IMG/VR virus record: IMGVR_UViG_3300006793_000265
Span: 1-24,835 of that record
Direction: 5' to 3' (one strand)
From: a virus
DNA: 24,835 nt
Of this stretch, positions 3,963 through 24,835 are shown piece by piece (within the stretch, counting starts at the first letter, position 1; the number at the start of each line of letters is the position of its first letter). Position numbers and translations under genes: made by a program. The notes beneath the pieces are model-generated. The model worked only from the letters and a program-made list of their open reading frames with translations, had not been told where the DNA came from and made no database searches.

Positions 3963-3967
3963 ACTAA

Positions 3968-3975
3968 TATTTATC
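3968..3975 (-). promoter_or_regulatory. T4-like late promoter box, predicts leaderless mRNA
   Basis: GATAAATA on the minus strand, ending 5 bases before the ATG at 3962. In T4 the late box spans -13 to -6, so +1 falls on the A of the ATG. No Shine-Dalgarno sequence is visible, which agrees with a leaderless message. Confidence 0.65.
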
Positions 3976-4000
3976 TATATCTTTTATGTGCGTAGATAAT

Positions 4001-4026
4001 AAAAAAGGGGCATAAAGCCCCCTTTT
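4001..4026 (-). terminator. Rho-independent terminator after gp19
   Basis: On the minus strand, an A-rich flank, a GC stem (GGGGGC pairing with GCCCC, with one extra G), a short TTTAT loop and a run of six T follow the gp19 stop codon by about 20 bases. It separates gp19 from the downstream tube-like gene, which has its own late promoter. The hairpin is nearly symmetric and could work on both strands. Confidence 0.85.
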
Positions 4027-4045
4027 ACTGTTATGTTTAAGTAAC

Positions 4046-4672
4046 TTACGAACCGCCGCCTGTTATCAACGAACCGTTCTGTCTTGGTACACTTACACCA
4101 ATACCACCATCTGCATCTGTTTGGATTGCATTGTCGTACTGCATTTCTAGTGTTACTGTTACTGGCTCATTGTTTTGATATGCTAATGAGTTATAGTTTG
4201 CGTTAGTAATAAAGCAACCATATAATTCAAAAGTTTCAAGAACGTTTGGCGTGTACACACCGTTACCACCGTCTAAGATCTCAATACGTGTTGTAAATTT
4301 GTAATCTTGACCTGATACTGGACTTGACTGTTCCATAAAATCAAATTGCTTCTGTAACTGTTCGCCTACAAGTTTCTGTACAGCATTGTTTACATCTTCA
4401 CGTAAGTTCAGTGTAATTGGTTGCCATGTGTGCTTGCCTGCTAAGTATGCTTTTGAGTTGTATGCATGTATTTCCATTGGCTCAAATGCTACTGTTGGTC
4501 TAGTTACGTCAATAACTTGTTTTGTTAGTTCTGTTGTCGGCGTTGAAACACCAAAGTTTTCCAGCGACACTCTAAAGCGGTACTGGAGCTTTGGCATCAA
4601 CAAGCCCTGGCTTGCAGCTGAGTCGCCACTTGCTAACGGAACTGTGATTTTCGATAATGATGAGATTGCCAT
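4046..4672 (-). CDS. 19: Tail tube protein gp19
   Basis: 208-aa major tail tube protein, matching T4 gp19 in size (163 aa in T4; marine relatives are about 200). It polymerises into hexameric rings that form the inner tube through which DNA passes. Family features include the MPKLQYRFRVSLENFG entry strand, PTVAFEPMEIHAYNSKAYLAGKHTWQPITLNLRED in the middle, and FELYGCFITNANYNSLAY followed by VTVTLEMQYDNA near the end. It lies directly after the sheath gene gp18, the normal T4 order. An AGGAG site stands 9 bases before the ATG, and a late promoter box sits in the 37-base gap. A terminator follows, so gp19 can be made as a separate abundant message, as fits its high copy number. Confidence 0.93.
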   Translation of the reverse strand: MAISSLSKITVPLASGDSAASQGLLMPKLQYRFRVSLENFGVSTPTTELTKQVIDVTRPTVAFEPMEIHAYNSKAYLAGKHTWQPITLNLREDVNNAVQKLVGEQLQKQFDFMEQSSPVSGQDYKFTTRIEILDGGNGVYTPNVLETFELYGCFITNANYNSLAYQNNEPVTVTLEMQYDNAIQTDADGGIGVSVPRQNGSLITGGGS

Positions 4673-4698
4673 TTAATTTGCTCCTAATTGCTTAATAT

Positions 4699-4706
4699 TA
4701 TTTATC
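4699..4706 (-). promoter_or_regulatory. T4-like late promoter box for gp19
   Basis: GATAAATA on the minus strand in the gap between gp18 and gp19. The expected transcript start near 4693 leaves a 21-base leader with AGGAG before the gp19 ATG. Confidence 0.7.
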
Positions 4707-4709
4707 ATC

Positions 4710-7700
4710 TTATAAGCCTGATATTTCACCAGTGTTTTTCAATCTCAACGGAATGTATATAAATTCAATTGACTTAACTGGTTCAATTGCAATATCAACA
4801 TATAATTCGTTGCGATCTACTCTTGCTGGAGTGTTGTTTGTTTCGTCACACACAACTAAGTAGTCGTACAATGCTCTTTGTCCTACTAGCTCAAGAAGTA
4901 AACTTTCAACTTGCTGTTTCATTTCATCTCTAGTAATTTTATCATTTGGTTCAAAGATATACGGTTTAGCAAGTGTGTTTAGTTGTGAACGTAAGTACAC
5001 TACTAGTCTTGCAACGTTAATTCTATCTAACGAGCTTGCACCTCTTGCACGAGTCTTCTGTCCAAAGTTAACAAGTCCTGCACCAGTAATAAACGTAATT
5101 GGGTTAACGCCTTGTGCATACAATGTATCACGCTGTCCTTCGTTTAATGATGTTGAAACAAATTCGCCTTCGTTACTAAGATAGCCTGTTGAACTTGCAT
5201 TGCTTATTCCGCCACGTCTTGTACCTGCTGGTGCAAACCATGGATAGCTAACTTGGTCACTTAGTGCAATAGTACGCATCATCATATGACTTGGTGGAAC
5301 AACTACGTTATTTCCAAAGTTATCGCTTGTAAAGCCCCATGGATAAAATACACCTAAGTATTCATCGTTAGTAACAAGTCCGTCGTCGTTATCTTCAACA
5401 GCTGCACGAACGTTTGTTCCCCATTCATTAAGTGAAGTTGCATCTGGTGTTAGTCTTGCTGGACTATCACCAACAACAAATGCTGTTAAGCCTCTGTCAC
5501 TGTTTAGTGTAGTTAACTCGCCAATTAGTTCCGGATATCCAGGAGCTGCAATTAAGTTAAATCTACGTGCGTCTTCATTTCTAATATCATCGTTACTGTT
5601 AACTACTGCTTGTAGTTTTTGTACAACAACTTTACGCTGTGCTTTACGTCCAAAGCTACCTGATCCATCTTCGTTGTTTGCTGATTCAGTTACCCAGCGA
5701 TCTGCTGCATAGCTTGTCATTACTTCGTCATTAAAGCGTTTGTTAAGAGCTGTTTTGTCAACATATGCAACTTCATAACGCTTAACATTAAATCCACTTC
5801 TACGTGTATTAAACAATAATGTACCTTTTGGATATAATGCTGGATCTGGACAATCTGGATCTACAAAGTTTTTAGTTAACAATGATTTAATTGTTGCTGC
5901 TGTATTTCCTTTTGCTCCACTTTCGCCGTAACGTGCATCAGCGAAAACTATACCGTTTTCAGTTGTTTGGTCACCGTTATCTACTAAGTCCCAGCGATCA
6001 AGCAATGGTCCTTTGTAGCGATTTATTGTTGGATAGTTTTCAATGTCACTAGTATCAATCCAAAGATCACCTGCTACTAATGCACTTGTACCGTCTGACT
6101 GTTTAGTTGGTTTTGTAGCTGAAACAATTGGTCCGTTTGCGTCAGTACCACTAACTGCATTATAGACTGGACTTGTTGAATCTTTATAGCCTACCCAAAC
6201 ACTACCGTTGTTAACCATAATGTCAACTTCGTCAATAGTTGAGTTGTACCATAATTGTCCTTGACTTGCTGTGTTTGACGGAGCACTGTTGCTAGGAGTA
6301 TAACTTAATACTTCCCAGTTACTTACTCTGTACTCAATTGGTGCAACGTTGTTGTCAGCACCTGGTTCGTCTGCAACAAAGCGTGTTCCTGCACCTGTAA
6401 CAATATTGTAAGGTGAAATACCTAACTGTGTTAATGCTGGTGCAAAACTTGCTACATCATCTTTAAGTTTCATTTCGCCGCCTGTGCTGTGTGTTATAAC
6501 TACACGATCATTATCAACACTTGCACTAACATTTGGAATATTAGCACTTGTAATAGCAGTTGCAAGATTAGTTGCTGTATCTGTACCTTGTGCAGCTGCA
6601 TTCCATACTATAGAATGTGCTGAGAATGTATTTGCTCCTGGTGAAGTTGCACTAATTTCTAGTCTATATGCTTCTCCATCTGTAAAGCTGGCTGGCGTTA
6701 TTACATTTGTTGTTACTGTAGTTGCGCCAACTGCTGCACGTTTAAATATTTTAAAAGTAGCAAGTGGACTAGTGTCGCCTGCAACATTAGTTTGAACAAA
6801 CAAGTTACCAATTGTTAAGTTTGCGCCGCCGCCTGTTAAATCTAAATCTACAATTGCATCTTGTGCAGTTGGATATAACGGAGCTGAAACTGAATCCCAA
6901 ATCTTAGTTGCATCGTTCCACTGTTTTACTCTCCAACGAGCACCTTGATTAGGTGTAGTTGTTTTAATCCAAATACTGCCACTTGGGCGACCATTATAGT
7001 TTGTGCCTGATTTAAATGTATCTGGAATTTCAGTGTGCTTACTAATTTGCACTGCTGGAATTAAATATTGTGTTGCTGATAGTCCTAACCAAGTTAGTAC
7101 TGATGCATTGTCATTTGCACCTAATGCAAACGTAATTCTATCAGTTGATGCGCCTGTGTTATATAATGCTAATTCGCCACTAACTTCTTTTGCTGTAATG
7201 CCTGGAATAGCAAATCCGTTAATTGCTGCTACTACTGTTGCTATCGAATCGCCTGTAGTTACTGTCACTGTTGTGCCATTTAACAAGAACACTTCTGAAC
7301 CGCTTTCGGAAGAATCTTCACCATATGTAGTACTTGCTTTTGCACTAGTTACAGTTGGAACAGAACCAATCCACTGCGATGAACCTACTTTAAGCCAGCC
7401 ACTAGTACTTCTATACCAAATTGTATTAAGTGTAGTTACTGAAACAATAGCGTAATCGCCAATTGCCCCAATTGAACCTAATGGTGTATAGTCTGCATTA
7501 TCAAAGTCAACTACCTGTGCCTGCTCTGTAATAGCAAGTGGTACTTTATTAGTAAATGTTTGTCCACCTGTTACTGACTCACTAGCATTATTCCACTGTT
7601 GAATTCCGTATACAGATGATGCTGTATCTAACCAATATGTGCCTGCGTCTGGAGCACTTACTGGTACTGTTGATGTTGGAGTAAGTTCGCCTAAATCTAC

Positions 7701-8039
7701 ATCTGCTCTTACTACCCACGCTCTGTTACTTACGCCTAAATATGAATATGCAGCTTGTAAGCCGTATTCGTTAAGTTCACTTCCGTGAACTGGATTATTA
7801 CTTGCATCTGTTTGGAAAACAGGATCTCCAAATGTTTCAGCTAAGTCACGTTGTGATGTTAGCAAGTACGGCTTACCAGCATTTACTGCTAGTGTTCCGA
7901 TTGCTGTGCCCGATGCTGAAGCATTTAGTTTATTCTCTTGCGATGCAACAAAAATTACTGGTACTGTACCTGGTTCAGCGGGTGTGTAGAAACTTTCATC
8001 TATTACGCTTACCTGTACACCTGGTGATGTCAATGCCAT
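4710..8039 (-). CDS. 18: Tail sheath protein gp18, enlarged
   Basis: 1109-aa contractile tail sheath protein (T4 gp18 is 659 aa). The N-terminus (MALTSPGVQVSVIDESFYTPAEPGTV) and the C-terminal domain (residues about 770-1109, with the FNLIAAPGYPELIG, VVPPSHMMMRTIALSD and INVARLVVYLRSQL segments and the final IEFIYIPLRL strand) are typical of the family. The core is interrupted between residues about 125 and 765 by a large surface region. This holds repeated short modules of the form G-x-x-W-x-x-T followed by a strand and a second Trp (near 133-153, 194-219, 354-384, 594-618, 657-686, and a degenerate one at 739-760) and two Ala/Thr-rich beta domains (about 230-325 and 400-545). These are probably exterior decorations. 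AGGAG precedes the ATG. Confidence 0.95.
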   Translation of the reverse strand: MALTSPGVQVSVIDESFYTPAEPGTVPVIFVASQENKLNASASGTAIGTLAVNAGKPYLLTSQRDLAETFGDPVFQTDASNNPVHGSELNEYGLQAAYSYLGVSNRAWVVRADVDLGELTPTSTVPVSAPDAGTYWLDTASSVYGIQQWNNASESVTGGQTFTNKVPLAITEQAQVVDFDNADYTPLGSIGAIGDYAIVSVTTLNTIWYRSTSGWLKVGSSQWIGSVPTVTSAKASTTYGEDSSESGSEVFLLNGTTVTVTTGDSIATVVAAINGFAIPGITAKEVSGELALYNTGASTDRITFALGANDNASVLTWLGLSATQYLIPAVQISKHTEIPDTFKSGTNYNGRPSGSIWIKTTTPNQGARWRVKQWNDATKIWDSVSAPLYPTAQDAIVDLDLTGGGANLTIGNLFVQTNVAGDTSPLATFKIFKRAAVGATTVTTNVITPASFTDGEAYRLEISATSPGANTFSAHSIVWNAAAQGTDTATNLATAITSANIPNVSASVDNDRVVITHSTGGEMKLKDDVASFAPALTQLGISPYNIVTGAGTRFVADEPGADNNVAPIEYRVSNWEVLSYTPSNSAPSNTASQGQLWYNSTIDEVDIMVNNGSVWVGYKDSTSPVYNAVSGTDANGPIVSATKPTKQSDGTSALVAGDLWIDTSDIENYPTINRYKGPLLDRWDLVDNGDQTTENGIVFADARYGESGAKGNTAATIKSLLTKNFVDPDCPDPALYPKGTLLFNTRRSGFNVKRYEVAYVDKTALNKRFNDEVMTSYAADRWVTESANNEDGSGSFGRKAQRKVVVQKLQAVVNSNDDIRNEDARRFNLIAAPGYPELIGELTTLNSDRGLTAFVVGDSPARLTPDATSLNEWGTNVRAAVEDNDDGLVTNDEYLGVFYPWGFTSDNFGNNVVVPPSHMMMRTIALSDQVSYPWFAPAGTRRGGISNASSTGYLSNEGEFVSTSLNEGQRDTLYAQGVNPITFITGAGLVNFGQKTRARGASSLDRINVARLVVYLRSQLNTLAKPYIFEPNDKITRDEMKQQVESLLLELVGQRALYDYLVVCDETNNTPARVDRNELYVDIAIEPVKSIEFIYIPLRLKNTGEISGL

Positions 8040-8155: not shown

Positions 8156-8491
8156 ATGAGACCATTATGCAAGTGCGGAGAGCGTCCTGCCGCAATAAAT
8201 TATAAAAAAGGTAAGAAAACATATTATCGTAAGCTGTGTGAAACTTGTTTACGTAACGGTTTAGGACATGGTATACCTAAGTGGAAACAAAAAGGATATG
8301 TTAAAAAAGATACTTGTGAAAAATGTAATTTTAAATCTAAACATCCTGAGCAGTTTAATGTATATCACATCGATGGCGATTTGGAAAATTGCCGCCCTGC
8401 TAACTTAAAAACTATATGTGCTAACTGCCAACGGATTATTCAAAAAGATGGAGTTGTTTGGAAGCAGGGAGATCTTGTTCCTGATTTTTAA
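8156..8491 (+). CDS. Small HNH endonuclease-like protein
   Basis: 111-aa protein with two zinc-finger-like sites and an HNH signature. The first half has CxC (5, 7) and CxxC (28, 31). The second has CxxC (54, 57), then the HNH core VYHIDGD (His71, Asp73), Asn83 in PANL, and CxxC (88, 91). This is the arrangement of small stand-alone HNH nucleases common in T4-like marine phages, many of them homing endonucleases. It is the only plus-strand gene in the first 10 kb. It lies in the sheath/dNMP kinase junction and runs head-on into the kinase gene, overlapping its 3' end by 56 bases. An AGGTGAG site lies about 11 bases before the ATG, and a loose late-like box (GCTAAATA, 8144-8151) is nearby. Its own selfish mobility or a packaging-nuclease role cannot be told apart. 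Confidence 0.75.
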   Translation: MRPLCKCGERPAAINYKKGKKTYYRKLCETCLRNGLGHGIPKWKQKGYVKKDTCEKCNFKSKHPEQFNVYHIDGDLENCRPANLKTICANCQRIIQKDGVVWKQGDLVPDF

Positions 8492-13376: not shown

Positions 13377-14537
13377 ATGCAAGTATTAATTATTGGCGAT
13401 ATTATTATCGATAGATATATTCATGGAACTACTACTAGATTAAATCCTGAAGCACCTGTTCCTGTTGTAAATGTAACCAACGAATACGATTCGTACGGTG
13501 GTGCATCTTTAGTATTTAAAAACTTAGAATCACTTGGTGTACATGTAACACAACTTCATTACGATGATGAAAAATCAATAAAGACAAGAGTACTAAGTGA
13601 TAATCATTATATTACACGTATTGATCAAGATGTTATTGCAAACGGAGACGGTATTGCAGATGATATTGAAGAGTTGGATTTGTCAAACTTTGAATACGTA
13701 ATTCTTAGTGATTACAATAAAGGTGTGCTTGATGCTGCACCACGGATAATTAAGCATTGCAATAAGTTTGGTTGCAAAGTTATTGTCGACCCAAAGCGAC
13801 ATGCAGATCATTATAAAGGTGCTTGGTTAGTTAAGCCTAATGCTAAAGAATTTATTGACCTTGGATTTAATAACTGGGATGGTAATATAATTATTACTGG
13901 CGGCGGTAATACATGTACTGCTGAATTTGAAAAAATTAGATATACCTCTACACCTAATAAAGTTGAAGTATCTGATGTAACAGGCGCAGGTGATTGTTTT
14001 CTTGCCTCTTTTGTTTATGGATTAACAAACGGAATGAAGTTTCAAGAATGTCTTGACATTGCTGTTTTTGGTTCAACCGAAAGTGTAAAGCATTATGGAA
14101 CGTATGTACTGATGCCTAAAGATATTAGGAAAAAAACAGTATTTACAAACGGATGTTTTGATATATTGCACACTGGACACTTAACACTTCTTAAAGAAGC
14201 TAAAGCTCAAGGTGATTATTTGATTGTAGGATTAAATTCAGATGATTCTATACAAAACTTAAAAGGCAACGATCGTCCTTATAATAATTTTGCTATACGT
14301 AGACAACAACTTGAATTAATTCCGTATGTAGATGAAATTATTGAATTTAGTGAAGAGACTCCTTATAATTTAATTAAAGATATAAAACCTAATTTAATTG
14401 TTAAAGGTGGTGACTATACAATAGAAGAAGTAGTAGGTCACGATTTAGCACCTGTACATATTGTGCCTACAGTTAAAGGACACAGTACAACAGATATTTT
14501 AAAGGCAAGAGATGAAAATACTAATAACAGGTCATAA
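13377..14537 (+). CDS. hldE: Bifunctional heptose kinase/nucleotidyltransferase, HldE-like
   Basis: 386-aa two-domain protein of the HldE/RfaE type (E. coli HldE is 477 aa). Residues 1-245 are a PfkB/ribokinase domain: GDIIIDRYIHGTTTRLNPEAPVP opening, GGASLVFKNLESLG, and DVTGAGDCF with catalytic Asp206. Residues 252-380 are a cytidylyltransferase-like domain: TNGCFDILHTGH (HxGH at 265-268), LNSDDSIQNLKGNDRPYN, and LIVKGGDYT. In the known pathway the kinase makes heptose 1,7-bisphosphate and the second domain joins heptose 1-phosphate to AMP, giving ADP-heptose. The kinase half is shorter than in E. coli, but its key motifs are present. It overlaps HldD by 26 bases and follows a host-like promoter. 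Confidence 0.9.
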   Translation: MQVLIIGDIIIDRYIHGTTTRLNPEAPVPVVNVTNEYDSYGGASLVFKNLESLGVHVTQLHYDDEKSIKTRVLSDNHYITRIDQDVIANGDGIADDIEELDLSNFEYVILSDYNKGVLDAAPRIIKHCNKFGCKVIVDPKRHADHYKGAWLVKPNAKEFIDLGFNNWDGNIIITGGGNTCTAEFEKIRYTSTPNKVEVSDVTGAGDCFLASFVYGLTNGMKFQECLDIAVFGSTESVKHYGTYVLMPKDIRKKTVFTNGCFDILHTGHLTLLKEAKAQGDYLIVGLNSDDSIQNLKGNDRPYNNFAIRRQQLELIPYVDEIIEFSEETPYNLIKDIKPNLIVKGGDYTIEEVVGHDLAPVHIVPTVKGHSTTDILKARDENTNNRS

Positions 14538-15333
14538 AGGATTTATAGGACAAAATTTAACATTCTATTTACAAGATAATTTTGAGTTATCAGGATACGA
14601 ATGGCAGGATGATTTTTTGCCTGAGGTAGAAGGTTTTGATTGGGTTATACACCTTGGAGCAATCTCTGCTACTACAGAAACAGATGTAGACAAAGTTATG
14701 TTACAAAACTATGAGTTTTCTAAATGGCTTTATCATCAATGTAATACTAAAGGCGTAAACTTTCAATATGCTAGTAGTGCTAGTGTATACGGCACTAACA
14801 CAGACTTCAACGAAGACGCTCCTAAGCAACCACAGAGCCCATATGCATATAGTAAATATCTATTTGATAGATGGGTGTGGCAACAGCAAAAACATAATAT
14901 TGTAGTTCAAGGATTGCGTTACTTTAATGTATTTGGTCCGTTTGAAGATCATAAAATTGATATGATGAGTCCTGTAAGTAAGTTTATTAAACAAGCTAAA
15001 GAAACTGGAACTATTACATTATTTGAAAATAGTAATAATTATAAAAGAGACTTTGTGTCTGTTAAAGATATTTGCGAAATACATTTACAATTATTAAGTA
15101 ATAAAAAACCAGGTTTGTTTAACGCAGGTACTGGGGGGACAACAAGTTTTCAAACAGTAGCAGAAGTAATTGCTAAAAAATACAATGCAAAAATAAACTA
15201 TGTAGCAATGCCTAATAAATTAAAAGGACAATATCAAGAATACACTTGCGCTGATATAAAAAAATTAAGTACAGTAACAAGTGGAATTAAATTTGAAACA
15301 GTAGAGGAATACATCAATGAACGAACCGACTAG
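14512..15333 (+). CDS. hldD: ADP-heptose 6-epimerase, HldD-like
   Basis: 273-aa short-chain dehydrogenase-type epimerase resembling HldD (RfaD, GmhD; about 310 aa in E. coli), which converts ADP-D-glycero-D-manno-heptose to the L-glycero form using bound NADP. The NAD(P) loop is GHKGFIG (7-13). The catalytic set is SSASVYG (88-94) and Tyr111-x3-Lys115. HldD-like signatures are LRYFNVFGPFEDHK, KRDFVSVKDI and a C-terminal YQEYTCADIKKL. The start lies inside the end of the HldE gene and the stop lies inside the cupin gene, so the three are translated from one message. Overall resemblance is stronger to HldD than to other epimerases because of the FGPFEDHK and YQxYTxADIxKL motifs, but the exact sugar is inferred. 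Confidence 0.85.
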   Translation: MKILITGHKGFIGQNLTFYLQDNFELSGYEWQDDFLPEVEGFDWVIHLGAISATTETDVDKVMLQNYEFSKWLYHQCNTKGVNFQYASSASVYGTNTDFNEDAPKQPQSPYAYSKYLFDRWVWQQQKHNIVVQGLRYFNVFGPFEDHKIDMMSPVSKFIKQAKETGTITLFENSNNYKRDFVSVKDICEIHLQLLSNKKPGLFNAGTGGTTSFQTVAEVIAKKYNAKINYVAMPNKLKGQYQEYTCADIKKLSTVTSGIKFETVEEYINERTD

Positions 15334-15703
15334 ATTAACAGGTGTAGTAGAAAAAGGCTGGGGCTACGAAATGATATGGGCTACCAATGAACACTACTGC
15401 GGTAAAATAATGGTATTTAATAGAGAAGGTGCTAAAACAAGTATGCACTTTCATAAAGAAAAAGACGAAACTTGGTTTGTAAATAGCGGAACATTTAAAG
15501 TTGCGTATATTGATACTAATAATTCTACGTTATATGAAAAAGAATTAGCTGAAGGCGCAACATGGCATAATCCTCCGTTACAACCACATCAGCTAATTTG
15601 TGTTAGTAAAGAAGGAAGTGTAACTGAAGTTAGCACTGCTGATAGTGTTGAGGACAATTATAGAATTGGTCCTGGCGATAGTCAAAAAATAGAAAGTAAG
15701 TAA
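15317..15703 (+). CDS. Single-domain cupin, sugar-related
   Basis: 128-aa cupin. The first motif is MHFHKEKDETWFVNSG with metal ligands His44, His46 and Glu51, and the second contains PHQL with His91. The opening EKGWGYEMIWA is like the mannose-6-phosphate isomerase/GDP-mannose pyrophosphorylase cupin domains and sugar-phosphate cupins, which open with WG-x-E. Related stand-alone proteins isomerise or bind phosphorylated sugars. It overlaps HldD by 17 bases, has a good AGAGGA site, and ends immediately before the first 2OG oxygenase. A role in sugar phosphate conversion is plausible. It could conceivably stand in for the missing sedoheptulose 7-phosphate isomerase GmhA, but there is no direct evidence and GmhA has an unrelated SIS fold. 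Confidence 0.75.
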   Translation: MNEPTRLTGVVEKGWGYEMIWATNEHYCGKIMVFNREGAKTSMHFHKEKDETWFVNSGTFKVAYIDTNNSTLYEKELAEGATWHNPPLQPHQLICVSKEGSVTEVSTADSVEDNYRIGPGDSQKIESK

Positions 15704-16315
15704 ATGGAAATAAAAGAATTATTCCCAGTAGCTATACTACAGCATCATATAGATAAAGATATGGCAGATACAATAGAAGATAAAATTGTACCATTGTTAG
15801 ATAACCTAGATCGTAATACACCTATATTGGACTCTGTTGGCGACGAGTATATATCTGTTGATACTATGTACACAGATTTTTGGGAAAACAAAATTCCAGT
15901 GCATGAAATTGTTCCTGACTTTTGGAACGTAGTAAGAGCAGCTGCATACGAGTATGCTGATCAAACAAGCTATTTTATTAATCCTAATTTTAAAGTCCGT
16001 TACTGGACACAAAATTATGTAAAACAAGATAGACACGATATACATCAACACGGTATAAATGGTGTAAGTGGAACTTACTTTATTAGAGCAAATGAAAATG
16101 CAGGACCAATACGTTTTTATAATCCTAATAACACAGCCGAGTATGTTCGCGCAGGCAATCCTTTAAATAAATTTGTACAAGGACATCACGACATATGGCC
16201 TGAAAAAGGCTTATTGTTATTATTCCCTTCGTATATAAAACATGCTGTAGAATCTGGCAGAAATGATGATGTTGTTAGAACTTCAATATCATTTGACTGT
16301 TGTCCTGGAGTTTAA
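15704..16315 (+). CDS. 2OG-Fe(II) oxygenase-like protein, copy 1
   Basis: 203-aa protein of the TIGR02466-like 2-oxoglutarate/Fe(II) oxygenase group common in T4-like marine phages. The visible core is HDIHQHGINGVSGTYFIRA (probable iron ligands around His114/His116), GPIRFYNP, KGLLLLFPSYIKHAV (distal His180), and VRTSISFD with Arg192 as the likely 2-oxoglutarate anchor. Such enzymes hydroxylate proteins, sugars or small molecules; the substrate here is unknown. It is closely related to the next gene (shared TDFWE-x-x-IPVHE-x-VPDF and KxGxxLLFPSYxKH), a tandem duplication. The ATG abuts the cupin stop codon with only a weak ribosome site, so it may be translated by coupling. Confidence 0.75.
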   Translation: MEIKELFPVAILQHHIDKDMADTIEDKIVPLLDNLDRNTPILDSVGDEYISVDTMYTDFWENKIPVHEIVPDFWNVVRAAAYEYADQTSYFINPNFKVRYWTQNYVKQDRHDIHQHGINGVSGTYFIRANENAGPIRFYNPNNTAEYVRAGNPLNKFVQGHHDIWPEKGLLLLFPSYIKHAVESGRNDDVVRTSISFDCCPGV

Positions 16316-16882
16316 ATGTTTACAAACTTATTTCCAATACCTATCTTACGTATAAAACTTAGTGATGAAATTGCAGATACAATGGAAGAAAAAATAGTTC
16401 CATTACTAGATAGTCTTAGTAGAGAAAACGATTCAGTATCTACAGATTTTTGGGAAAAGCAAATTCCAGTACACGAACTAGTACCAGACTTTTTCCAACA
16501 AGCAATTGAAGCTGCTCTTGAATTCCAAGAACATACAGGTATTGAAATAGATCCTGAAATACGTATTAAATATTGGACTCAAGATTATTTGCCAAATGAT
16601 AGCCATCAAATACATCATCACGGAATACACGGTATTAGTGGTACATACTGGGTTAGAGCAAATGAAGATGCTGGATCATTTAGATTGTTTAGTACAAACC
16701 CACATAGTGATTTAGTTTTAAATAATAAACAGACTGAATACACTGTAGCGTACGAAGACATATGGCCCGAGAAAGGTATGATGTTATTATTCCCTTCATA
16801 CATGAAACATTGTGTAATGCAAAGTGGTAAAAATGCAATTCGTACTTCTGTTTCATTTAACTTTGGATGTTCTAATGTATAA
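16316..16882 (+). CDS. 2OG-Fe(II) oxygenase-like protein, copy 2
   Basis: 188-aa paralogue of the previous gene, shortened by loss of about 12 residues near position 40 and a few elsewhere. The core is SHQIHHHGIHGISGTYWVRA (likely ligands His100/His102), KGMMLLFPSYMKH (His165) and IRTSVSFNF (Arg176). All catalytic positions seen in copy 1 are kept, so both copies may be active, perhaps on different substrates. GGAG lies 6 bases before the ATG, which directly follows the copy 1 stop. Its 3' end overlaps the start of the phosphatase gene by 8 bases. Confidence 0.75.
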   Translation: MFTNLFPIPILRIKLSDEIADTMEEKIVPLLDSLSRENDSVSTDFWEKQIPVHELVPDFFQQAIEAALEFQEHTGIEIDPEIRIKYWTQDYLPNDSHQIHHHGIHGISGTYWVRANEDAGSFRLFSTNPHSDLVLNNKQTEYTVAYEDIWPEKGMMLLFPSYMKHCVMQSGKNAIRTSVSFNFGCSNV

Positions 16883-17567
16883 AATAGACTGGAGTACAGA
16901 CAAATCTAAAACAACAGAAACGTCTACAAAAAAGAGTAATATACGCTACAGTACTGACGACCCAATACCTTATTACAATAGTACAGACAACATTGCACCT
17001 AAAGTTGTTGTAGGATTAGATCGAGACGGTGTTATTAATGTTGATCGAGGCGAGTATACATATAAAGTTAAAGATTTTGAACCAATTGAAGGTAGTCTAG
17101 AAGCTGTTGCTAAAATAAGACGCTTAGGACATAAAATTGCTATTATTACTAACCAAGGCGGAATTGCTAAAGGAATATTTTCTGAATCTGATGTAGATAA
17201 AGTACACGACTATATGTTTGAGTTACTTGGCGAAGCGGGTTGTTTAAGTGTTGATGCATTATATTATAGTGCATCGAGTTTACGTAATGATATGTATGCT
17301 AAACCCAATGTTGGCATGTTTAAAAGATGTGAAGAAGAAAATTCATTTATTAAATTTAAGAAAGGATATTTTGTTGGAGATAAAATATCTGATCTAAAAG
17401 CTGCATTTAAAATTGGTGCAACTCCGATACTAGTTAAAACAGGTTACGGTTTAGAAACTATAAAAGAATTAAATAAATTTTCCAATCAGAAGATAAAAAA
17501 GAAAACTATTATATTTGATGATTTAATGTCTGTTGCTAATTGGCTGGAAAATCGAGACCAAAGTTAG
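16875..17567 (+). CDS. gmhB: HAD phosphatase, GmhB-like
   Basis: 230-aa HAD-IIIA phosphatase resembling GmhB, which removes the 7-phosphate from heptose 1,7-bisphosphate between the two HldE reactions. Motif I is GLDRDGVIN (Asp49, Asp51), motif II is IITNQGGIAKG, and motif IV is VGDKISDLKAA. The KPNVGM segment matches the GmhB KPxPGM turn. Two oddities are visible: an N-terminal polar extension of about 42 residues (many Thr/Ser/Lys), and absence of the Cys-rich zinc loop normal in GmhB, replaced by YYSASSLRND. I chose the ATG at 16875 over one at 16824 because the earlier start would lie deep in the upstream oxygenase gene and adds a non-family stretch. The 3' end overlaps the convergent oxygenase by 32 bases. 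Confidence 0.8.
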   Translation: MYKIDWSTDKSKTTETSTKKSNIRYSTDDPIPYYNSTDNIAPKVVVGLDRDGVINVDRGEYTYKVKDFEPIEGSLEAVAKIRRLGHKIAIITNQGGIAKGIFSESDVDKVHDYMFELLGEAGCLSVDALYYSASSLRNDMYAKPNVGMFKRCEEENSFIKFKKGYFVGDKISDLKAAFKIGATPILVKTGYGLETIKELNKFSNQKIKKKTIIFDDLMSVANWLENRDQS

Positions 17568-18153
17568 CACTAATAGATACACGTATTTCTTCTGTTTTAT
17601 TATACGTTACATAATGATCCAAGTTACTTGGAAAAAATACAATATCGCCTTCTTCCATTAAAGGATTAAACAATTTACCGTTATTTCCAGGGCCATAAAA
17701 TCTTTCAGTTAAGTGAGTCGGAAACCAATTCAATGCACTATTGTAAAACATAAACTGTCCACTGTCAGGATTATTGTCTGGTAAGTCAAGTACATATGCA
17801 CAACTAACTAAATTATTTCCGCCGCCGTGCGAATGTACGTCTTGATGTTGATGTTGACTATATTTGTTTGCCCATGCTGTTCCTGATAAATTTTTAAGAT
17901 CATCTGGAGCCATACCTAAGTAATTAAGGTATGCTTGTAACGGTGCCTGTACATTTTTATAAAATATATCCCACGGTAATTGATTATTTTCTTCATGCGA
18001 ATTATGTGTAGTTTCGCAATTACATTCCCAATGCGAACTACTATGTTGAAATGCAGTACTGTCTTTAATAAAAGATGAAAATTGTTCTTTTATTTCTTTA
18101 TGATCAGGCATTTCACATTTAAGTATTGGAGCACCAAATATACTATCTATCAT
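17536..18153 (-). CDS. 2OG-Fe(II) oxygenase-like protein, copy 3
   Basis: 205-aa protein, more distant from the two plus-strand copies but with the same core: HQDVHSHGGGNNLVSCAYVL (His107/His109), SGQFMFYN, EEGDIVFFPSNLDHYV (His180) and EEIRVSISANF (Arg191). It is the third gene of the minus-strand transfer arm; its ATG lies 11 bases inside the carbamoyltransferase gene and no clear ribosome site is seen, so coupled translation is likely. The N-terminal region has a His/Cys-rich patch (SSSHWECNCETTHNSHEE). The substrate is unknown; hydroxylation of a sugar or of a virion protein are both possible. Confidence 0.75.
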   Translation of the reverse strand: MIDSIFGAPILKCEMPDHKEIKEQFSSFIKDSTAFQHSSSHWECNCETTHNSHEENNQLPWDIFYKNVQAPLQAYLNYLGMAPDDLKNLSGTAWANKYSQHQHQDVHSHGGGNNLVSCAYVLDLPDNNPDSGQFMFYNSALNWFPTHLTERFYGPGNNGKLFNPLMEEGDIVFFPSNLDHYVTYNKTEEIRVSISANFGLDFPAN

Positions 18154-19945
18154 TTTTAATAGCTACTTTCACATTATGCTCAGGCAGGTACAAATATTCA
18201 ATCCCACTATTAGCAAGTGTTCTAAATGCATCATCTAGCGTTTCTACTAATGGCTCACCGCCTAGGTTAAATGATGTATTAAATATAATTGGAACTCCTG
18301 TTTGTTTATAAAACTCGTTAATTAAATCATAATAAACTTCATTCTGTTCTCTAGTTACTGTTTGTATACGACATGTGCCGTCAACATGTATAATACTTGG
18401 AATCTTTTCTGCTACACCTTCTTGACAATTCATAGCATACATCATATGTGGTGAATCTTTCATTCCACGCATATCAAACCATTCTTCTGCATGTTCAGCT
18501 AGTATAGTACCAGCAAATGGACGGAAGTATTCTCTACGTTTAATTCTATTAACATGATCTTTGCCATTTGGATCAGTTGGATCATAAAGTATACTTCTGT
18601 TACCTAATGCACGTGGCCCTGATTCTGATCGTCCTTGAAATAATGATACAATATTCTTTTCAGTAATTAATTTAATAATATCTTCATTTGTTGCTTCAGT
18701 AACATCAGCGTTGTATTGTAACGCTAACATTTCAATTTCGTCTCTTGAATATGTATTCTCAGGACCTAAGTATAAACTTTCACCAAAAGGCCGTTGTGTA
18801 GTACTTTTAGTAAGTGAATGATATCCCATCATTGCTGCACCAATAGCAGTACCAGCATCACTAGAAATAGGTTCAACATATAAATTAATACCTTCGTCTT
18901 TTAGTTCGTTTAAGTACCAATAATTTGCAACACAGTTTAAACCATACCCGCCACTAAGTACAACATTCTTATGTCCTGTTGTTTCCACAGCCTTACGTAT
19001 TAAACGCAATACTTCTGCTTGGCTTTCTGTTTGCACAGCATACGCAAGATCTCTTCTACTCTGTAGTTTAGTTAAGTCGTCATTTTTTTCAGGTGTAGTT
19101 AATTCATTAAACCGTCCTTCATTAACTAACGCACCATTTGGATATGTAGGAATAATAAGGTTTCTATCTGACGATCTCCAATCACCACCAGCATCAGTAT
19201 ACAACGGAGGAATATTATCATTAGGTTTTCCATATGGAAATAACCCCATTGTTTTACCTGCTTCAATTGATTGAAATCCGCAATACTGTGTTACTGCTTC
19301 GTATGTTTTAACAATACCAGCAGTGTCATCAATAATAGCTTCGTGTGTTTCCTTGTCTTCCATAAACCATTCACTTGTCATAGCCGGATCTCGCATTGAT
19401 ATATACGGTCCATTACCACCTAAATGTTTGTATACTGTATGAAAGTTATCTGGGTACGCACACGTAAAGATTGACTCTAATTCCCAAACTGTAGTATCAG
19501 TGCCGCCAATACTCATTGGAATAAATGTGCCAGCGCCGTCTACAATAACACTTACTGCCTTGTCAAATCCACTACGATAAAATGCACAGCCTGCATGTAA
19601 TTTATGATGTATTCTTGATAAGTCAATAACCTGAGGATGTTCCCAATTGTTTACATCTGGACCTCGTTCAATCAAGCCTAGTTTACGTGCTAGACCTGTA
19701 TACACATTGTCGCCTGTAAAATCAACTGTTGCCGCTGATTCTTCTAAACTTTGTGTATGTGCAATGAATATATAATCTAATTTATCGGTGTATTCGAGTA
19801 TCTTAATCATACTTGCATATGGACCGCCGTCATACTTTTGACGACTTAGTCTTTCTTCTTCTATAGCAAATACAATTTCACCGTCTTTAAGCAAACACAC
19901 ACCGCCATTATGACCGCGTGTTATTCCTGCTATCCACTGACTCAT
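18143..19945 (-). CDS. NodU/CmcH-type O-carbamoyltransferase
   Basis: 600-aa full-length carbamoyltransferase of the NodU/CmcH family, which moves a carbamoyl group from carbamoyl phosphate, through carbamoyl-AMP, to a hydroxyl of a sugar or other metabolite. The N-terminal Kae1/YgjD-like domain has GITRGHNGGVCLLKDGEI and FAIEEERLSRQKYDGG, then HHKLHAG (His113, His114, His117) and VDGAGTF. LSGGYGLNCVANYW and SSDAGTAIGAA follow. The C-terminal domain has FQGRSESGPRALGNRSIL, RPFAGTIL and GVPIIFNTSFNLGGEPLV. An ideal AGGAGG lies 6 bases before the ATG, and the ATG overlaps the stop of the GT9 gene as ATGA. Close coupling to a heptosyltransferase-like gene suggests a sugar substrate. All expected family motifs appear intact. 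Confidence 0.9.
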   Translation of the reverse strand: MSQWIAGITRGHNGGVCLLKDGEIVFAIEEERLSRQKYDGGPYASMIKILEYTDKLDYIFIAHTQSLEESAATVDFTGDNVYTGLARKLGLIERGPDVNNWEHPQVIDLSRIHHKLHAGCAFYRSGFDKAVSVIVDGAGTFIPMSIGGTDTTVWELESIFTCAYPDNFHTVYKHLGGNGPYISMRDPAMTSEWFMEDKETHEAIIDDTAGIVKTYEAVTQYCGFQSIEAGKTMGLFPYGKPNDNIPPLYTDAGGDWRSSDRNLIIPTYPNGALVNEGRFNELTTPEKNDDLTKLQSRRDLAYAVQTESQAEVLRLIRKAVETTGHKNVVLSGGYGLNCVANYWYLNELKDEGINLYVEPISSDAGTAIGAAMMGYHSLTKSTTQRPFGESLYLGPENTYSRDEIEMLALQYNADVTEATNEDIIKLITEKNIVSLFQGRSESGPRALGNRSILYDPTDPNGKDHVNRIKRREYFRPFAGTILAEHAEEWFDMRGMKDSPHMMYAMNCQEGVAEKIPSIIHVDGTCRIQTVTREQNEVYYDLINEFYKQTGVPIIFNTSFNLGGEPLVETLDDAFRTLANSGIEYLYLPEHNVKVAIKNDR

Positions 19946-20907
19946 TTACTGCCTCCTACACTTAATAATGTTTTATTAGGTTTTCCTAATTTTTTTCTAA
20001 TTGAATCAACAATATCTTTAGTTTGTGCTTTAGATAAATCCATGCATTTGTCGTTTACTCTATCAGGTTCTTCTTCATTTGTAATTCTAATTGGGCTATA
20101 CACACGCATGTCTTTGCCAATATCAAAAATCGTAACACCTTTATCATCTACGTATGATGTGTTTATAGGATATGTACTTCCAATAACTACTGTTGTCTGT
20201 GTATCAAGTGCTTTAGCAATGTGTTGTCCTACACTATCACAACCTAAGAAATGATCTGCGGCATCGATAACTCCAGCCCATACACGTATGTCTGGTATTT
20301 GTGGTTGAGCTATAGGTATATTATCATCTTTTGTATTTTTCATATTTAATTGTATTTCGCTCATTAATATAACTGCAAAATCTTTTTTCAGTTCATTAGC
20401 AATATCAAGCATATCTTCAGCTCTAAAACTTCTTGACGTAACATCAATTAAATCTTCTTCAGTTGTTCGTCCAAACGGTTGTATTACAATTACTTTATCT
20501 TTGCCAGTTGTTTCTTTAACTTCTTTAACTACATTTTCGCCTTGTGCTTTTTCAATTTTATTAAGATACACTGACGGAATAATAACGTCACGTAAGCCTT
20601 TGTTATTAATTTCTATATCAAACGCTTGTGCTAAACTACATTCTTGATTATAATATTCCCAAACTCTATACGGTTCTGGCGAAACACAATTTCTTTCTTT
20701 AATAAAAGATTCAAACAATCCCTTATGCCATGTGTCGTATGCTCGCTTGTGAAGTGTTGGATGACCTTTATAAAAATCCGTTCCTGCTTCACAAACAATA
20801 ATAAAATCGTCGTTTGGATTTTCTTTTTCATACGCTTCAAATGCAGGTATTGAAGTTATAACACGGCCAGCGCCGCCATTGATAAAGAAAGCTGTTGATC
20901 TTGTCAT
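19942..20907 (-). CDS. GT9 (heptosyltransferase-like) glycosyltransferase
   Basis: 321-aa GT-B type protein resembling glycosyltransferase family 9, whose best-known members (WaaC, WaaF) transfer heptose from ADP-heptose to lipopolysaccharide. The N-terminal loop is INGGAGRVITSIPAFEAYE (9-27), like the GDxxxxTP...L start of GT9. VIQPFGR begins the C-terminal domain, and FLGCDSVGQHIAKALDTQTTVVIGST (220-245) is the donor-site motif (usual form D-S-G-x-x-H-x-A-x-A-x-x-x-P-x-V). The ATG at 20907 is preferred to GTG at 20919 because AGAGG lies 11 bases before it. The perfect late box upstream predicts late expression. The family match is moderate; related non-heptose GT9 proteins exist, so the donor is inferred from the neighbouring heptose genes. 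Confidence 0.75.
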   Translation of the reverse strand: MTRSTAFFINGGAGRVITSIPAFEAYEKENPNDDFIIVCEAGTDFYKGHPTLHKRAYDTWHKGLFESFIKERNCVSPEPYRVWEYYNQECSLAQAFDIEINNKGLRDVIIPSVYLNKIEKAQGENVVKEVKETTGKDKVIVIQPFGRTTEEDLIDVTSRSFRAEDMLDIANELKKDFAVILMSEIQLNMKNTKDDNIPIAQPQIPDIRVWAGVIDAADHFLGCDSVGQHIAKALDTQTTVVIGSTYPINTSYVDDKGVTIFDIGKDMRVYSPIRITNEEEPDRVNDKCMDLSKAQTKDIVDSIRKKLGKPNKTLLSVGGSK

Positions 20908-20940
20908 AGAATAATACACCTCTTAGTAAATTTACTAAAA

Positions 20941-21037: not shown

Positions 21038-21850
21038 TTATTCTAATACATCTGTGCGAGGCCAAGATGAATCTACAAATATTGTAGGAACATTTGCTTC
21101 TTGCATTGCTGCCGGAAAATCACGTAGTAATTGTCTATACACAACAAGTTTGTCCCACTTTGCTTTGTCAATGTCTTTTAGAATTAAAAATAATGTGTCA
21201 GTATTAGAAAGTCTCTCGTCTCGTTCTATACGTATGTCTTCCCAAGTGTTAGCTGCGCCAATTATATCTTCATTTGTATGCTTATACAAATCTAATTCAT
21301 TAGTTTCAAAATTCCATACACTAAGTTTTTCGTCATACAACTCATCTGGATGAATTGGATACTCATATTCAAATGCAATATATCCTTCAGGTACTGGTAT
21401 AGTTTTAGTACCCGGAGTTTCTATCCATTCTTCTTTGTCTTTATAGTTATCATGATGATCGGACATAACTTCTGCATCTAACGGATGTTCTCTAGCATCT
21501 AACTTAACAATTACCATTTCCTCAGGATCTGGCATATATTGCCAGTTATCTGTTGACTCTAATACTTCAAACTCTCGTTGTATGTGACGAATAAGATTTG
21601 TTTCTTTTTCTACCCAAAGATACAAAAATTTAGGACCTTTATATACTGTATCAATAGTTTCAGTTTCTTCGCCATCCATATAATTGTCTATTGGACATTC
21701 ATAAGAATAGTTTACTTCAACCCATTCAGTTCCGTGTTCGTCAGTCATCACAATGTCTCTATAGTCAATTACTTCACTATCTAGCTCGTCTCGATTGTCA
21801 TCGATATTTGGATTTCCTTCGTCAATTATGTTTTCTTCTTCACTCATCAT
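21038..21850 (-). CDS. Tail-fibre-assembly-like protein
   Basis: 270-aa acidic protein, last of the fibre operon. Residues 1-60 are strongly acidic and rich in Asn/Glu. The middle is beta-rich with many Trp and Tyr. The C-terminal 80 residues resemble phage tail fibre assembly chaperones: WEDIRIERDERLSNTDTLFLI, then a WDKLVVYRQLLRDFP segment (family form W-x-x-x-R-x-x-R-x-x-x-L-x-x-x-D ... W-x-x-Y-R-Q-x-L-R-D-x-P). Such proteins help fibre trimers fold or attach. The whole protein could also be a virion component that only carries this C-terminal domain. It starts directly after the stop of the Cys-rich gene (TAA then ATGATG), with GGAG 4 bases upstream of the first ATG. Confidence 0.75.
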   Translation of the reverse strand: MMSEEENIIDEGNPNIDDNRDELDSEVIDYRDIVMTDEHGTEWVEVNYSYECPIDNYMDGEETETIDTVYKGPKFLYLWVEKETNLIRHIQREFEVLESTDNWQYMPDPEEMVIVKLDAREHPLDAEVMSDHHDNYKDKEEWIETPGTKTIPVPEGYIAFEYEYPIHPDELYDEKLSVWNFETNELDLYKHTNEDIIGAANTWEDIRIERDERLSNTDTLFLILKDIDKAKWDKLVVYRQLLRDFPAAMQEANVPTIFVDSSWPRTDVLE

Positions 21851-22714
21851 TTAACTCCAAGTTATTCTCATCATACCAGGTTTACCAGGAGTACCTCTAC
21901 AATAACAAAGACCGCCTCCACAAGCTGATTTCATTGAATTTGATCCGCCGCCGGATACTTGTCTAAATCCTCTACAACAGTTAGTACAACCACAGTATTG
22001 AACACAGTTTTCAATATGATAAGTGTGTCCGTTACTAATTCCCCAAGATGCTGAAACTGTCGTGTGTCGTCCAACACAGTCACAGTTTCCTCTGTACTTA
22101 ATAAATGCTGGTTCGTCACCTAAGTCTACCCAGTCAAACTTTTGACAGAAACATAATCCGTTAGCACACATGCCGTCTGTTCTGTTACCTTGGTTATTAC
22201 ATCTACAACTACAGTAAAGGTTATATCCACCTCTGCCGCCTGTCATACATGTACAACATAAGCATCTTCCACTAAATCGTGTCATACATCCTCTTGGTGC
22301 ATCACAACATGCTGTAAAACAGCCACAACCGTTGTTAACTGTTCCGTTGCCACCTGCGCCAATACACCAGCAGTAAATACATCCTGGTGCAAAGCATCCG
22401 CTCTGTCTAAATAGTGTTCTACGACCGTAGTAGCCACTCATTGATCCACAGCTAACCATGTCACACCAGCAACCTTTACAACAGTGTCCTGCGCCTGAGC
22501 CGCCTCCGCTCCACATTTCAAATTGTACTGTTTGCGCACAATCAGGTACTGTCCAAGTACCTGTTCGCTGACAGTGTGATCTACATCTGTGTGGACCACA
22601 ACATACTAAACAAGTGTTAAAGCAGGTACATGTACCACCTGGGGATCTACCAGCAGTTCGCTGACAAGTCCCGTCTGGGTATTTCATACCCGTGCTAATC
22701 ATCTCAGTTGCCAT
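21851..22714 (-). CDS. Extremely cysteine-rich tail-associated protein
   Basis: 287-aa protein with 43 cysteines by my count (about 15 percent), plus abundant Gly, Arg and Thr and no lysine-rich or membrane segments. Cysteines come in CC, CxC and CxxC clusters all along the chain, for example TCTCFNTCLVCC near residues 28-39, HCCKGCWC, CLCCTC and CSCRC. Gly-rich turns (MWSGGGSGAG, IGAGGNG, VSGGGSNS) resemble the GGxGG loops of phage fibre tips and the C-terminus (RGTPGKPGMMRITWS) resembles fibre proteins that end in a strand. It sits between a fibre with an S74 chaperone and a fibre-assembly-like gene, so it is probably a fibre tip or adhesin. The Cys could form disulfides outside the cell or bind metal. 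A GGGAG site is 9 bases before the ATG. It does not match any family I can name. Confidence 0.8.
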   Translation of the reverse strand: MATEMISTGMKYPDGTCQRTAGRSPGGTCTCFNTCLVCCGPHRCRSHCQRTGTWTVPDCAQTVQFEMWSGGGSGAGHCCKGCWCDMVSCGSMSGYYGRRTLFRQSGCFAPGCIYCWCIGAGGNGTVNNGCGCFTACCDAPRGCMTRFSGRCLCCTCMTGGRGGYNLYCSCRCNNQGNRTDGMCANGLCFCQKFDWVDLGDEPAFIKYRGNCDCVGRHTTVSASWGISNGHTYHIENCVQYCGCTNCCRGFRQVSGGGSNSMKSACGGGLCYCRGTPGKPGMMRITWS

Positions 22715-22715
22715 A

Positions 22716-24835
22716 TTATGCGTCTCCCTTTAATGTATTTATTTCTTGTTTTAATTCTTTAATTGCTTCAACTAATAGCGGTATAATTCTTTCGTATTGT
22801 ACAGTCATATAGTTCTCACCTGACGCACTATACTCTTCGAATATACCTGCTTCTTTGTCTTCATTTTGTGCAATGTCAAATGGTGCAGGTAACACTACTT
22901 CTGGTAGTACTGCTTTTACTTCTTGTGCAAGTAATCCTGCTTGTAATTCATCACCTTCAAATCCGTTTTCTTTAGCAAGCTCGTTTACTTTGTAAATTAC
23001 GCCATTTAAACTACAAACTTTTTCTAGTGCGTTTTCGATATTACCTTGAACATCCTTTAAACGTGCATCTGAATAGTTTGAAACAATATTGCCTGTTGCA
23101 CGTATTTGTCCAGCACTGTTTGGATCTGCTGTGTTAACACCTATACAACGTACACTTGTCATATTCTTAGATGCGTCAATAAGCTCACTGCCGCCCATTT
23201 GGAACGATCCAACGTTTACGTTAACACCTGTATCATCTAAAATTTGGAACCAAACTTTATTGTTGTCTTCTGGCTCTCTAAAGTCAATACCTTCAGGCGT
23301 TGCTCTAATTTCAAAATCAACACCTGCGTCACTTGATCCGTTAAATGTAATACTTGGATTAGCAGTACCGTATAAGTTAATAAGGCCTCGGTTAACATTT
23401 AATGTACCATTCATAGTATGCGTATCACTTGTAGCATTACCTAATGTGCCGTTACCGTTATAACTAAATGTTCCACTTGCACTTAAATTTGTAAATGAGC
23501 CAGAAGATCCTGATATTGACATGTTACTAATTGTACCACTGCCCGGAGATAGTGTTAACGATCCAGCCGGTGAAATTGTAACTGTACCTGTACCAGTTGG
23601 CGATAGTGTAACATTTTTATTAGCTGGACTTAGTGTAACTGTGTTGTTAGCATCTAATGATGTAAACTGTCCTGAACTTCTTGATACGTTACCAATTGCT
23701 CCTACAAAGCCGCCGCCACTATATATTCTTTTAGCAATACTTGCTCCGCCTTCGCAACGTAGCTGTCCTGTATCGCCTGAAGCATTTGTTGCATCACCTG
23801 TACCTGTAATATCAACTACGCCACTTGCATTTATACTTGTAAATGTACCTGTATTACTCGATACATTACCAATTGGTCCTTGGAAACTTCCTGCATAAAT
23901 TGCACCGCTTGCACCAATACCACCTGTTACTACTAGTGTACCCGATGTAGTATTAGTTGATGCTGTATTTTTTGTAAGTGTTACTGCATCGCTTGCAGTT
24001 AGTGTAGTAAATCCACCACTACTTTTTGTTGCTGCACCAATTGGAGTATTATCTATTGCACCAGCAAATATTGATCCGCCGACTCCTAGTCCGCCTGTTA
24101 CAACAACTGCTCCACTTCCGCTTCCGGAACTAGCAGTTGATGAACTAAATGTTGTATTACCACTTGCAGCAAGTGTAGTAAATCTACCTGTTCCTGCTGT
24201 AGTAGCACCAATGTTGATGCCGTCCATAGTACCAGCTGTATCAGAAGTAATAGTTACTGTGTCGCCTGATCCAATTACTACTGGTCCACCTGGATCAATA
24301 GTTACTGAACTGGTTGGACCTGTTGGTGATATATTAATTGTTTGTGCAGCTGCTGTAAAGTCTAAATTACCTGGAAATGCTGTTGGCTTTCCTGCTTCAC
24401 CAAGTGTAATTGTTCCTGTTGTAGATGCTAAAGTTAAATCACCTGCTGGTCTAATAGTAGCTTGCCCGCCTGGCTGAACTGAAACGGAAGATTGCGGACT
24501 AATGTCTACTGTGCCTGTGCCTGTTGGTTTGATTTGTACATTTGCATCTGCTGGATTTAGTTCTACTGGACCATCTGCATTTAATAAATCATTTGTTGTT
24601 AACGGTAATTCAAATATTGTAGTACCAGCTAACGCACTTGTTAGCACGTAGTTTGCACCATCTGACGTTAATTGGTATGTTGAGTTAGTTGGAATATCTA
24701 CTGACGATCCTAGTGTAACACCGTTACCTGTAATTTGTCCTGCTGCCGTACTAATAGTAATCATGTCAGCAGTTGCATTATAGAACGTTTGTCTACTACC
24801 TGGAAAAAACACTGGACTTACCATTGTTACTTCGT
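22716..24835 (-). CDS. Tail fibre with S74 chaperone domain (partial)
   Basis: At least 702 residues of a long trimeric tail fibre or spike, probably lacking its N-terminus. An ATG at 24824 is in frame but has no ribosome site and the frame stays open to the window edge, while its first residues read like the middle of a fibre. Repeats of VVTGGLGVGGSIFAGAI, VVTGGIGASGAIYAGSF and a diverged third copy, each followed by GxIGxxxxxxGxFTSL-type segments, and Pro/Thr repeats (KPTGTGTVDISP, SPTGTGTVTISP) indicate a beta-helical shaft. The last 118 residues form an intramolecular chaperone of the endosialidase (Peptidase S74) type: SDARLK with the Ser-Asp start at residue 585, GLLAQEVKAVLPEVV, YERIIPLLVEAIKEL. 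By analogy it cleaves before that Ser after trimer folding. Confidence 0.88.
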   Translation of the reverse strand, partial: EVTMVSPVFFPGSRQTFYNATADMITISTAAGQITGNGVTLGSSVDIPTNSTYQLTSDGANYVLTSALAGTTIFELPLTTNDLLNADGPVELNPADANVQIKPTGTGTVDISPQSSVSVQPGGQATIRPAGDLTLASTTGTITLGEAGKPTAFPGNLDFTAAAQTINISPTGPTSSVTIDPGGPVVIGSGDTVTITSDTAGTMDGINIGATTAGTGRFTTLAASGNTTFSSSTASSGSGSGAVVVTGGLGVGGSIFAGAIDNTPIGAATKSSGGFTTLTASDAVTLTKNTASTNTTSGTLVVTGGIGASGAIYAGSFQGPIGNVSSNTGTFTSINASGVVDITGTGDATNASGDTGQLRCEGGASIAKRIYSGGGFVGAIGNVSRSSGQFTSLDANNTVTLSPANKNVTLSPTGTGTVTISPAGSLTLSPGSGTISNMSISGSSGSFTNLSASGTFSYNGNGTLGNATSDTHTMNGTLNVNRGLINLYGTANPSITFNGSSDAGVDFEIRATPEGIDFREPEDNNKVWFQILDDTGVNVNVGSFQMGGSELIDASKNMTSVRCIGVNTADPNSAGQIRATGNIVSNYSDARLKDVQGNIENALEKVCSLNGVIYKVNELAKENGFEGDELQAGLLAQEVKAVLPEVVLPAPFDIAQNEDKEAGIFEEYSASGENYMTVQYERIIPLLVEAIKELKQEINTLKGDA
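22736..22743 (-). promoter_or_regulatory. Possible late promoter box for Cys-rich gene
   Basis: AATAAATA on the minus strand inside the last codons of the fibre gene. With T4 spacing the start is near 22730, giving a 16-base leader with GGGAG. The first base departs from consensus. Confidence 0.45.

Follow-up and report, generated by a model that had tools for sequence, protein, structure and literature searches.

The window analysed here is the whole 24,835-nucleotide stretch of the viral IMG/VR record IMGVR_UViG_3300006793_000265, and its minus strand carries an open reading frame that encodes a putative tail-fibre tip protein, hereafter the tip. The frame runs from an ATG at 22714 to a stop codon at 21851 and encodes 287 residues, 43 of which (15%) are cysteine; both the bounds and the count are exactly those given in an earlier, sequence-only reading of this DNA. 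That reading had also called the protein tail-associated, and the gene order agrees: the gene starts 1 nt downstream of a tail-fibre gene and directly precedes a gene of the Phage_tail_APC type, which begins at the base right after the tip's stop codon (Table 1). The start of the tail-fibre frame is placed at 24824 in one listing, and in the other the frame stays open as far as 24833, in the direction of the record's end.

Table 1. Genes, segments and residues discussed in the text, by position in the window.
Feature	Position	Strand	Description
Tail sheath	4710-8039	-	Very large, 1109 aa
Small ORF with CxxC pairs	8156-8491	+	Strand opposite to its neighbours
HldE-like kinase/adenylyltransferase	13377-14537	+	
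HldD-like epimerase	14512-15333	+	
Cupin	15317-15703	+	
2OG-Fe(II) oxygenase	15704-16315	+	2OG-FeII_Oxy_5
2OG-Fe(II) oxygenase	16316-16882	+	2OG-FeII_Oxy_5
GmhB-like phosphatase	16824-17567	+	
2OG-Fe(II) oxygenase	17536-18153	-	2OG-FeII_Oxy_5
NodU/Nol-like carbamoyltransferase	18143..19945	-	Next gene of the conserved cassette
PHROG_8954 protein	19942..20919	-	Weak similarity to heptosyltransferases (GT9); associated with the tip cassette
Tail-fibre assembly chaperone-type protein	21038..21850	-	PHROG_9740 / PF16778, 270 aa, 1 Cys
Cys-rich tail-fibre tip protein (putative)	21851..22714	-	287 aa, 43 Cys; PHROG_4205 member, Gly_rich_2-like
Tip residues 51-287	21854..22564	-	Predicted TNF-like beta-sandwich with Gly/Cys-rich loops, 35 Cys; from AF2, Foldseek to 7ypx and conserved columns
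Cys270	21905..21907	-	Changes with Cys237; in another branch with residue 57
Cys237	22004..22006	-	Gained together with Cys270 in the lineage of the window and L001
Framework motif W54-G76	22487..22555	-	WTVP...FEMWSGGGSGAG; common to the family; weak Gly_rich_2 match in the window
N-terminal segment, residues 1-50	22565..22714	-	8 Cys; from alignments and pLDDT
Tail fibre	22716..24833	-	C-terminal Peptidase_S74 chaperone, long-tail-fibre PHROGs

Because the remaining genes of the window hold only 54 cysteines in 7460 residues (0.72%), chance is excluded as the cause of the cysteine content of the tip; at this background the binomial probability of at least 43 cysteines in 287 residues is 5e-42. 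The cysteines form 5 CC, 12 CxC and 6 CxxC motifs. Their spread had been described as even, which is roughly correct, but none occurs in the first 16 residues or in several of the loops. Four relatives in IMG/VR (L001-L004) are 91-98% identical to the window protein and keep the frame open throughout. The dN/dS ratio is 0.11-0.20 against these near relatives and 0.19-0.23 against the wider subfamily, and synonymous TGT/TGC variation is found at 25 of the 34 Cys codons that are invariant among 11 sequences. The tip gene is under purifying selection. More specifically, the low dN/dS and the synonymous variation at invariant Cys codons indicate that the cysteines themselves are selected at the protein level, and they rule out a chance or antisense open reading frame. 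The earlier reading had named an untranslated frame as one finding that would count against it; as far as sequence can tell, the open frame in the four relatives and the overall dN/dS range of 0.11-0.23 support coding.

No family known to the author of the earlier reading had seemed to fit the protein. The HMM search proposed there provides one: residues 37-287 align with positions 34-285 of the 287 in the PHROG_4205 profile (E 2.2e-5). PHROG_4205 is a divergent group within the Gly_rich_2 / Pam3-gp24-like tip proteins that has no functional name in PHROGs, and the window protein is a remote member of it with an extreme cysteine content. All 68 members scanned match PHROG_4205, 50 match PHROG_35878, and a few also match tail-fibre PHROGs. 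Gly_rich_2 (PF21722) is matched at E<=0.1 by 44 of the 68. The window protein scores 10.1 bits against this model, below the gathering cut-off of 24.3, and is therefore not a formal member; judged by the profiles, kinship at the superfamily level holds because its relatives reach an E value of 2.8e-11. Searches with the single tip sequence (PDB; tblastn against phages) gave no matches, likely because of composition or filtering, since the profiles worked.

Two DNA patterns were used to collect family members in IMG/VR, yielding at least 283 member ORFs from at least 148 loci, nearly all on viral contigs and with S-SSM7, P-SSM2 and the window included in the count. The 218 distinct full-length members contain 17-43 cysteines, only one of which was demanded by the search pattern (NFCA), the cysteine content being otherwise unselected. 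The mean composition of the family is 17.6% Gly and 9.4-9.5% Cys. Through the PHROG_4205 profile, three tandem Cys-rich genes were recognised in S-SSM7 (SSSM7_114-116) and two in P-SSM2 (PSSM2_304 and 306), all annotated as hypothetical; further members occur in Sf-FS3, S-CAM3 and S-SSM6a/P-SSM5. Of 24 cases from bacterial and archaeal genomes, one proved real: a contig assigned to a Rhodobacteraceae MAG, on which three Cys-rich tips and the chaperone stand together (L345 2841-6142, minus strand); it is probably a phage contig inside the MAG bin. With a single such case, a cellular origin of the family is unsupported, and the family, a large one of marine phage proteins, is restricted to phages as far as it was searched. 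A photosystem gene, taken as a host marker, is present in the P-SSM2 and S-SSM7 controls and in none of eight metagenomic contigs, all of which are fragments. On a further contig (L120), two more Cys-rich proteins of 454 and 436 aa with 8-9% Cys (719-2083 and 2083-3393, plus strand) are encoded just upstream of a family member and are unmatched by the family profile.

An AF2 model of the tip, built from 68 sequences, has a pLDDT of 69.5 and a pTM of 0.72, with low confidence over residues 1-29. A structure search had been suggested earlier as a check, and the top PDB match found by Foldseek is the Pam3 fibre, 7ypx_A (E 1.4e-5, probability 1.0, 270 columns), with TM scores of 0.46/0.52 for a model of moderate confidence. 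The next PDB matches are Bxb1 tail-tip chains and the glycine-rich domain of ALK, and the top matches in BFVD are members from S-CAM3 and P-SSM2, followed by many phage proteins named 'glycine-rich domain-containing'. The ALK match agrees with the published naming of ALK as a structural relative of Pam3 gp24 (PMC9608196). ALK/LTK share the TNF-like and Gly-rich architecture in their extracellular domain; however, they are animal receptors and their Foldseek scores are weak (E 0.03 or worse). A sequence search of the PDB with either the tip protein or the family profile found no match, Pam3 gp24 included. On the strength of the model, the tip is predicted to share its overall fold, a TNF-like domain with a Gly-rich tip, with the Pam3-gp24-like fibre. 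Fold, family and gene order together lend good support to the original suggestion of a Cys- and Gly-rich adhesin at a tail-fibre tip. The segment that differs most among subfamilies in the alignments is residues 1-50, which presumably serves for attachment.

In Pam3 (gp24/gp25; 7ypx; PMC9608196), as predicted for the tip, Gly-rich loops are placed on a beta-sandwich, and a single tip gene is followed by a dedicated chaperone-type gene. The Gly-rich domain of Pam3 is 39% Gly, and neither cysteine nor disulphide is mentioned for it (PMC9608196), whereas the window protein over its whole length is 17% Gly and 15% Cys. In S16 the fibre tip is likewise a protein of its own, gp38 (PDB 6F45), which has Gly-rich motifs and, distally, variable loops (PMC6851490), but it consists of more than 50% Gly in a polyglycine II lattice stabilised by hydrogen bonds of the main chain, and it is absent among the best 50 Foldseek matches of the tip model.

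The genes of the cassette follow a fixed order, namely tail fibre, one to three Cys-rich tips, chaperone-type gene, GT9-like transferase and carbamoyltransferase. The chaperone family is located directly downstream of the last tip in 114 of 127 loci and accounts for 51 of the 52 genes found between tips. Representative chaperones match PF16778 (Phage_tail_APC) and tail-fibre-assembly PHROGs, and an adjacent assembly chaperone gene is thus a trait held in common with Pam3. The chaperone model (pLDDT 87) has no significant match in the PDB, so the structural tie to Pam3 gp25 was not recovered. A chaperone motif search blind to cysteine returned 17 strong matches. Of these, 15 (long chaperones) have an upstream gene, and it was Cys-rich (9-12% Cys) in 15 of 15; as the loci behind the chaperone profile had themselves been located by way of the tips, this figure shows tight linkage, not independence. 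The weaker matches are generic short chaperones with an upstream gene of 0-2.2% Cys. The chaperones and fibres contain 0.8% and 0.6% Cys, respectively. In the subfamily of one contig (L025), the upstream fibre gene (2373-5963, plus strand) is unrelated to the tail fibre of the window by BLAST clustering and includes a weak cupredoxin-like stretch.

This arrangement bears on whether the protein belongs to the virion at all. It could instead be a cytoplasmic store of metal or redox equivalents during infection, a view with which the annotation of the isolate genes as hypothetical and the lack of any peptide report in the literature are compatible. It also counts against the fibre-tip reading that no virion proteomics was found in the literature for a phage known to carry the tip gene; the proteomics in PMC3037559 covers S-SM1, S-PM2 and Syn9, and PHROG_4205 was not found in the latter two. 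The predicted fold, the kinship with Gly_rich_2, the occurrence of tandem copies next to a tail-fibre gene and the presence of a chaperone dedicated to them all point the other way, and a non-virion role is the least probable of the readings considered, to the point of being barely credible.

The downstream part of the cassette raises a different possibility, that the tip is glycosylated by the GT9-like transferase with a carbamoylated heptose made by the phage and attached, perhaps, to Ser or Cys; the sugar genes would then serve the tip and not the host LPS. PHROG_8954, which weakly matches heptosyltransferases, occurs in 94 of the 148 tip loci and is in many loci the gene after the chaperone; together with the NodU-like carbamoyltransferase it recurs in cyanophages and in the window, which also contains HldE-, HldD- and GmhB-like genes. 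Such phage genes are, however, usually interpreted as LPS modification (their role is left open in PMC3037559), the transferase is missing from some loci, and the PHROG_8954 protein is without a convincing PDB relative. Glycosylation of the tip is accordingly regarded as highly improbable.

Several other features of the window may be recorded. A near-complete ADP-heptose pathway occupies 13377-17567 on the plus strand, and the substrate of the PHROG_8954 protein might be either the tip or the LPS of the host. Three 2OG-Fe(II) oxygenase genes neighbour one another (Table 1), and in Sf-FS3 a gene annotated as of the prolyl-4-hydroxylase type (L310 9905-10537) is found directly 3' of the chaperone. 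Jumbo phages, among them Atu_ph07 and PA5oct, carry the best annotated relatives of the tail sheath (~42% identity). The small ORF with CxxC pairs resembles, by eye, an HNH-type homing endonuclease.

Cysteine is the most conserved residue in six of the eight subfamilies. Over the eight subfamily trees, fewer branches than expected carry exactly one Cys change (47 against 77.7 expected, z -4.4), which was seen for none of 10 other residues tested. The cysteines thus change in a coupled way; in part this reflects more clustering in general, since there is also an excess of branches with five or more changes. In the subfamily of the window, cysteines of the pairs 39+115, 53+113, 57+270 and 237+270 change with the same sign, and Cys237 and Cys270 set the window and L001 apart from L002-L004. 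This coupling favours bonding partners. The Cys totals of the 218 distinct full-length members divide equally into 109 odd and 109 even, and in the subfamily trees a net gain or loss of a single Cys is common; not every cysteine can therefore be paired within its chain. The odd/even balance speaks against strict intra-chain pairing, and strict disulphide pairing was dropped as a proof because exactly half of the totals are odd.

The main rival to disulphides is metal, in which case the fibre tip would be held together by Cys-ligated Zn, Cu or Fe, possibly already in the cytoplasm. Shared metal sites would also give coupled change and would tolerate odd and even totals equally, CxC is frequent in the window protein, and a tip can be a lattice of many weak bonds, as seen in S16 gp38 and Pam3. 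The usual ligand spacing of Zn and Fe-S sites is CxxC. Relative to shuffled sequences, CC is enriched 1.93-fold and CxC 1.23-fold, but CxxC only 1.13-fold (533 against 470 expected), which speaks against Zn-ribbon or Fe-S sites and rules out CxxC-type metal sites as the main design. No metal-site family was matched in Pfam, PHROGs or NCBIfam, and the tip has neither the recurrent spacing nor a profile match that would mark it as Zn-ribbon, Fe-S or metallothionein-like. Histidine is neither abundant nor conserved, and 34-43 ligands would require about ten metal ions per chain. Metal ligation is on these grounds rather unlikely. The redox chemistry of the cysteines might alternatively be the point, with free thiols or labile disulphides exchanging with thiols of the host surface, or a redox change switching binding on. 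With odd totals, half of the members would have thiols without a partner, and several single-Cys gains and losses are seen; yet the CxxC exchange motif is not specially enriched, and one or two reactive cysteines would suffice where many are conserved across the whole domain, so that a redox-active adhesin appears very unlikely. The data are best fitted by a cross-linked network in which disulphides would predominate and some thiols would be free or inter-chain.

Thus, the tip is probably a receptor-binding tail-fibre tip with the TNF-like and Gly-rich fold of Pam3 gp24, cross-linked through its cysteines. It would sit at the end of the fibre as a trimer and is carried as one to three tandem copies between the tail fibre and the dedicated chaperone, which may hold it during folding in the reducing cytoplasm. 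After lysis, oxygenated seawater would turn its thiols into cross-links, mostly disulphides and perhaps some between chains of the trimer. A DsbA-type oxidase was seen in none of 10 contigs or genomes, which is weak evidence but fits oxidation outside the cell; no Erv/Evr1 oxidase was found in 10 contigs, by a search that had no working positive control. The cross-links would lend rigidity to a tip whose glycine content is about half that of a polyglycine lattice, and would in part replace that lattice. Across the family, Cys and Gly contents show a weak anticorrelation (rho -0.21, without correction for kinship). The host surface would be bound by the variable loops that lie between the fixed cysteines. 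A wider proposal, which is conceivable but somewhat less likely true than false, is that marine phages have evolved covalently cross-linked tips cured by seawater, in which a conserved Cys scaffold takes the place of the polyglycine lattice and allows the loops to diversify, much as in conotoxins or antibodies, the chaperone keeps tens of thiols reduced until lysis, and tandem copies provide several tips per virion.

The fold and the role of the tip are of a known kind. The extreme Cys scaffold, the linkage to a specialised chaperone and the spread among phages were not found described in the literature searched, most subscription papers lying outside the search. Adhesins determine the host range of phages, and little is known of those of ocean cyanophages and their relatives. 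The present analysis ties a widespread family that had no known function, together with its gene cassette, to the fibre tip, and the isolated cyanophages that carry members make this reading testable. If the tips are indeed cross-linked after lysis, they would represent an unusual route from a reducing cytoplasm to a tough and evolvable binding surface, and may offer a new scaffold for binder design.
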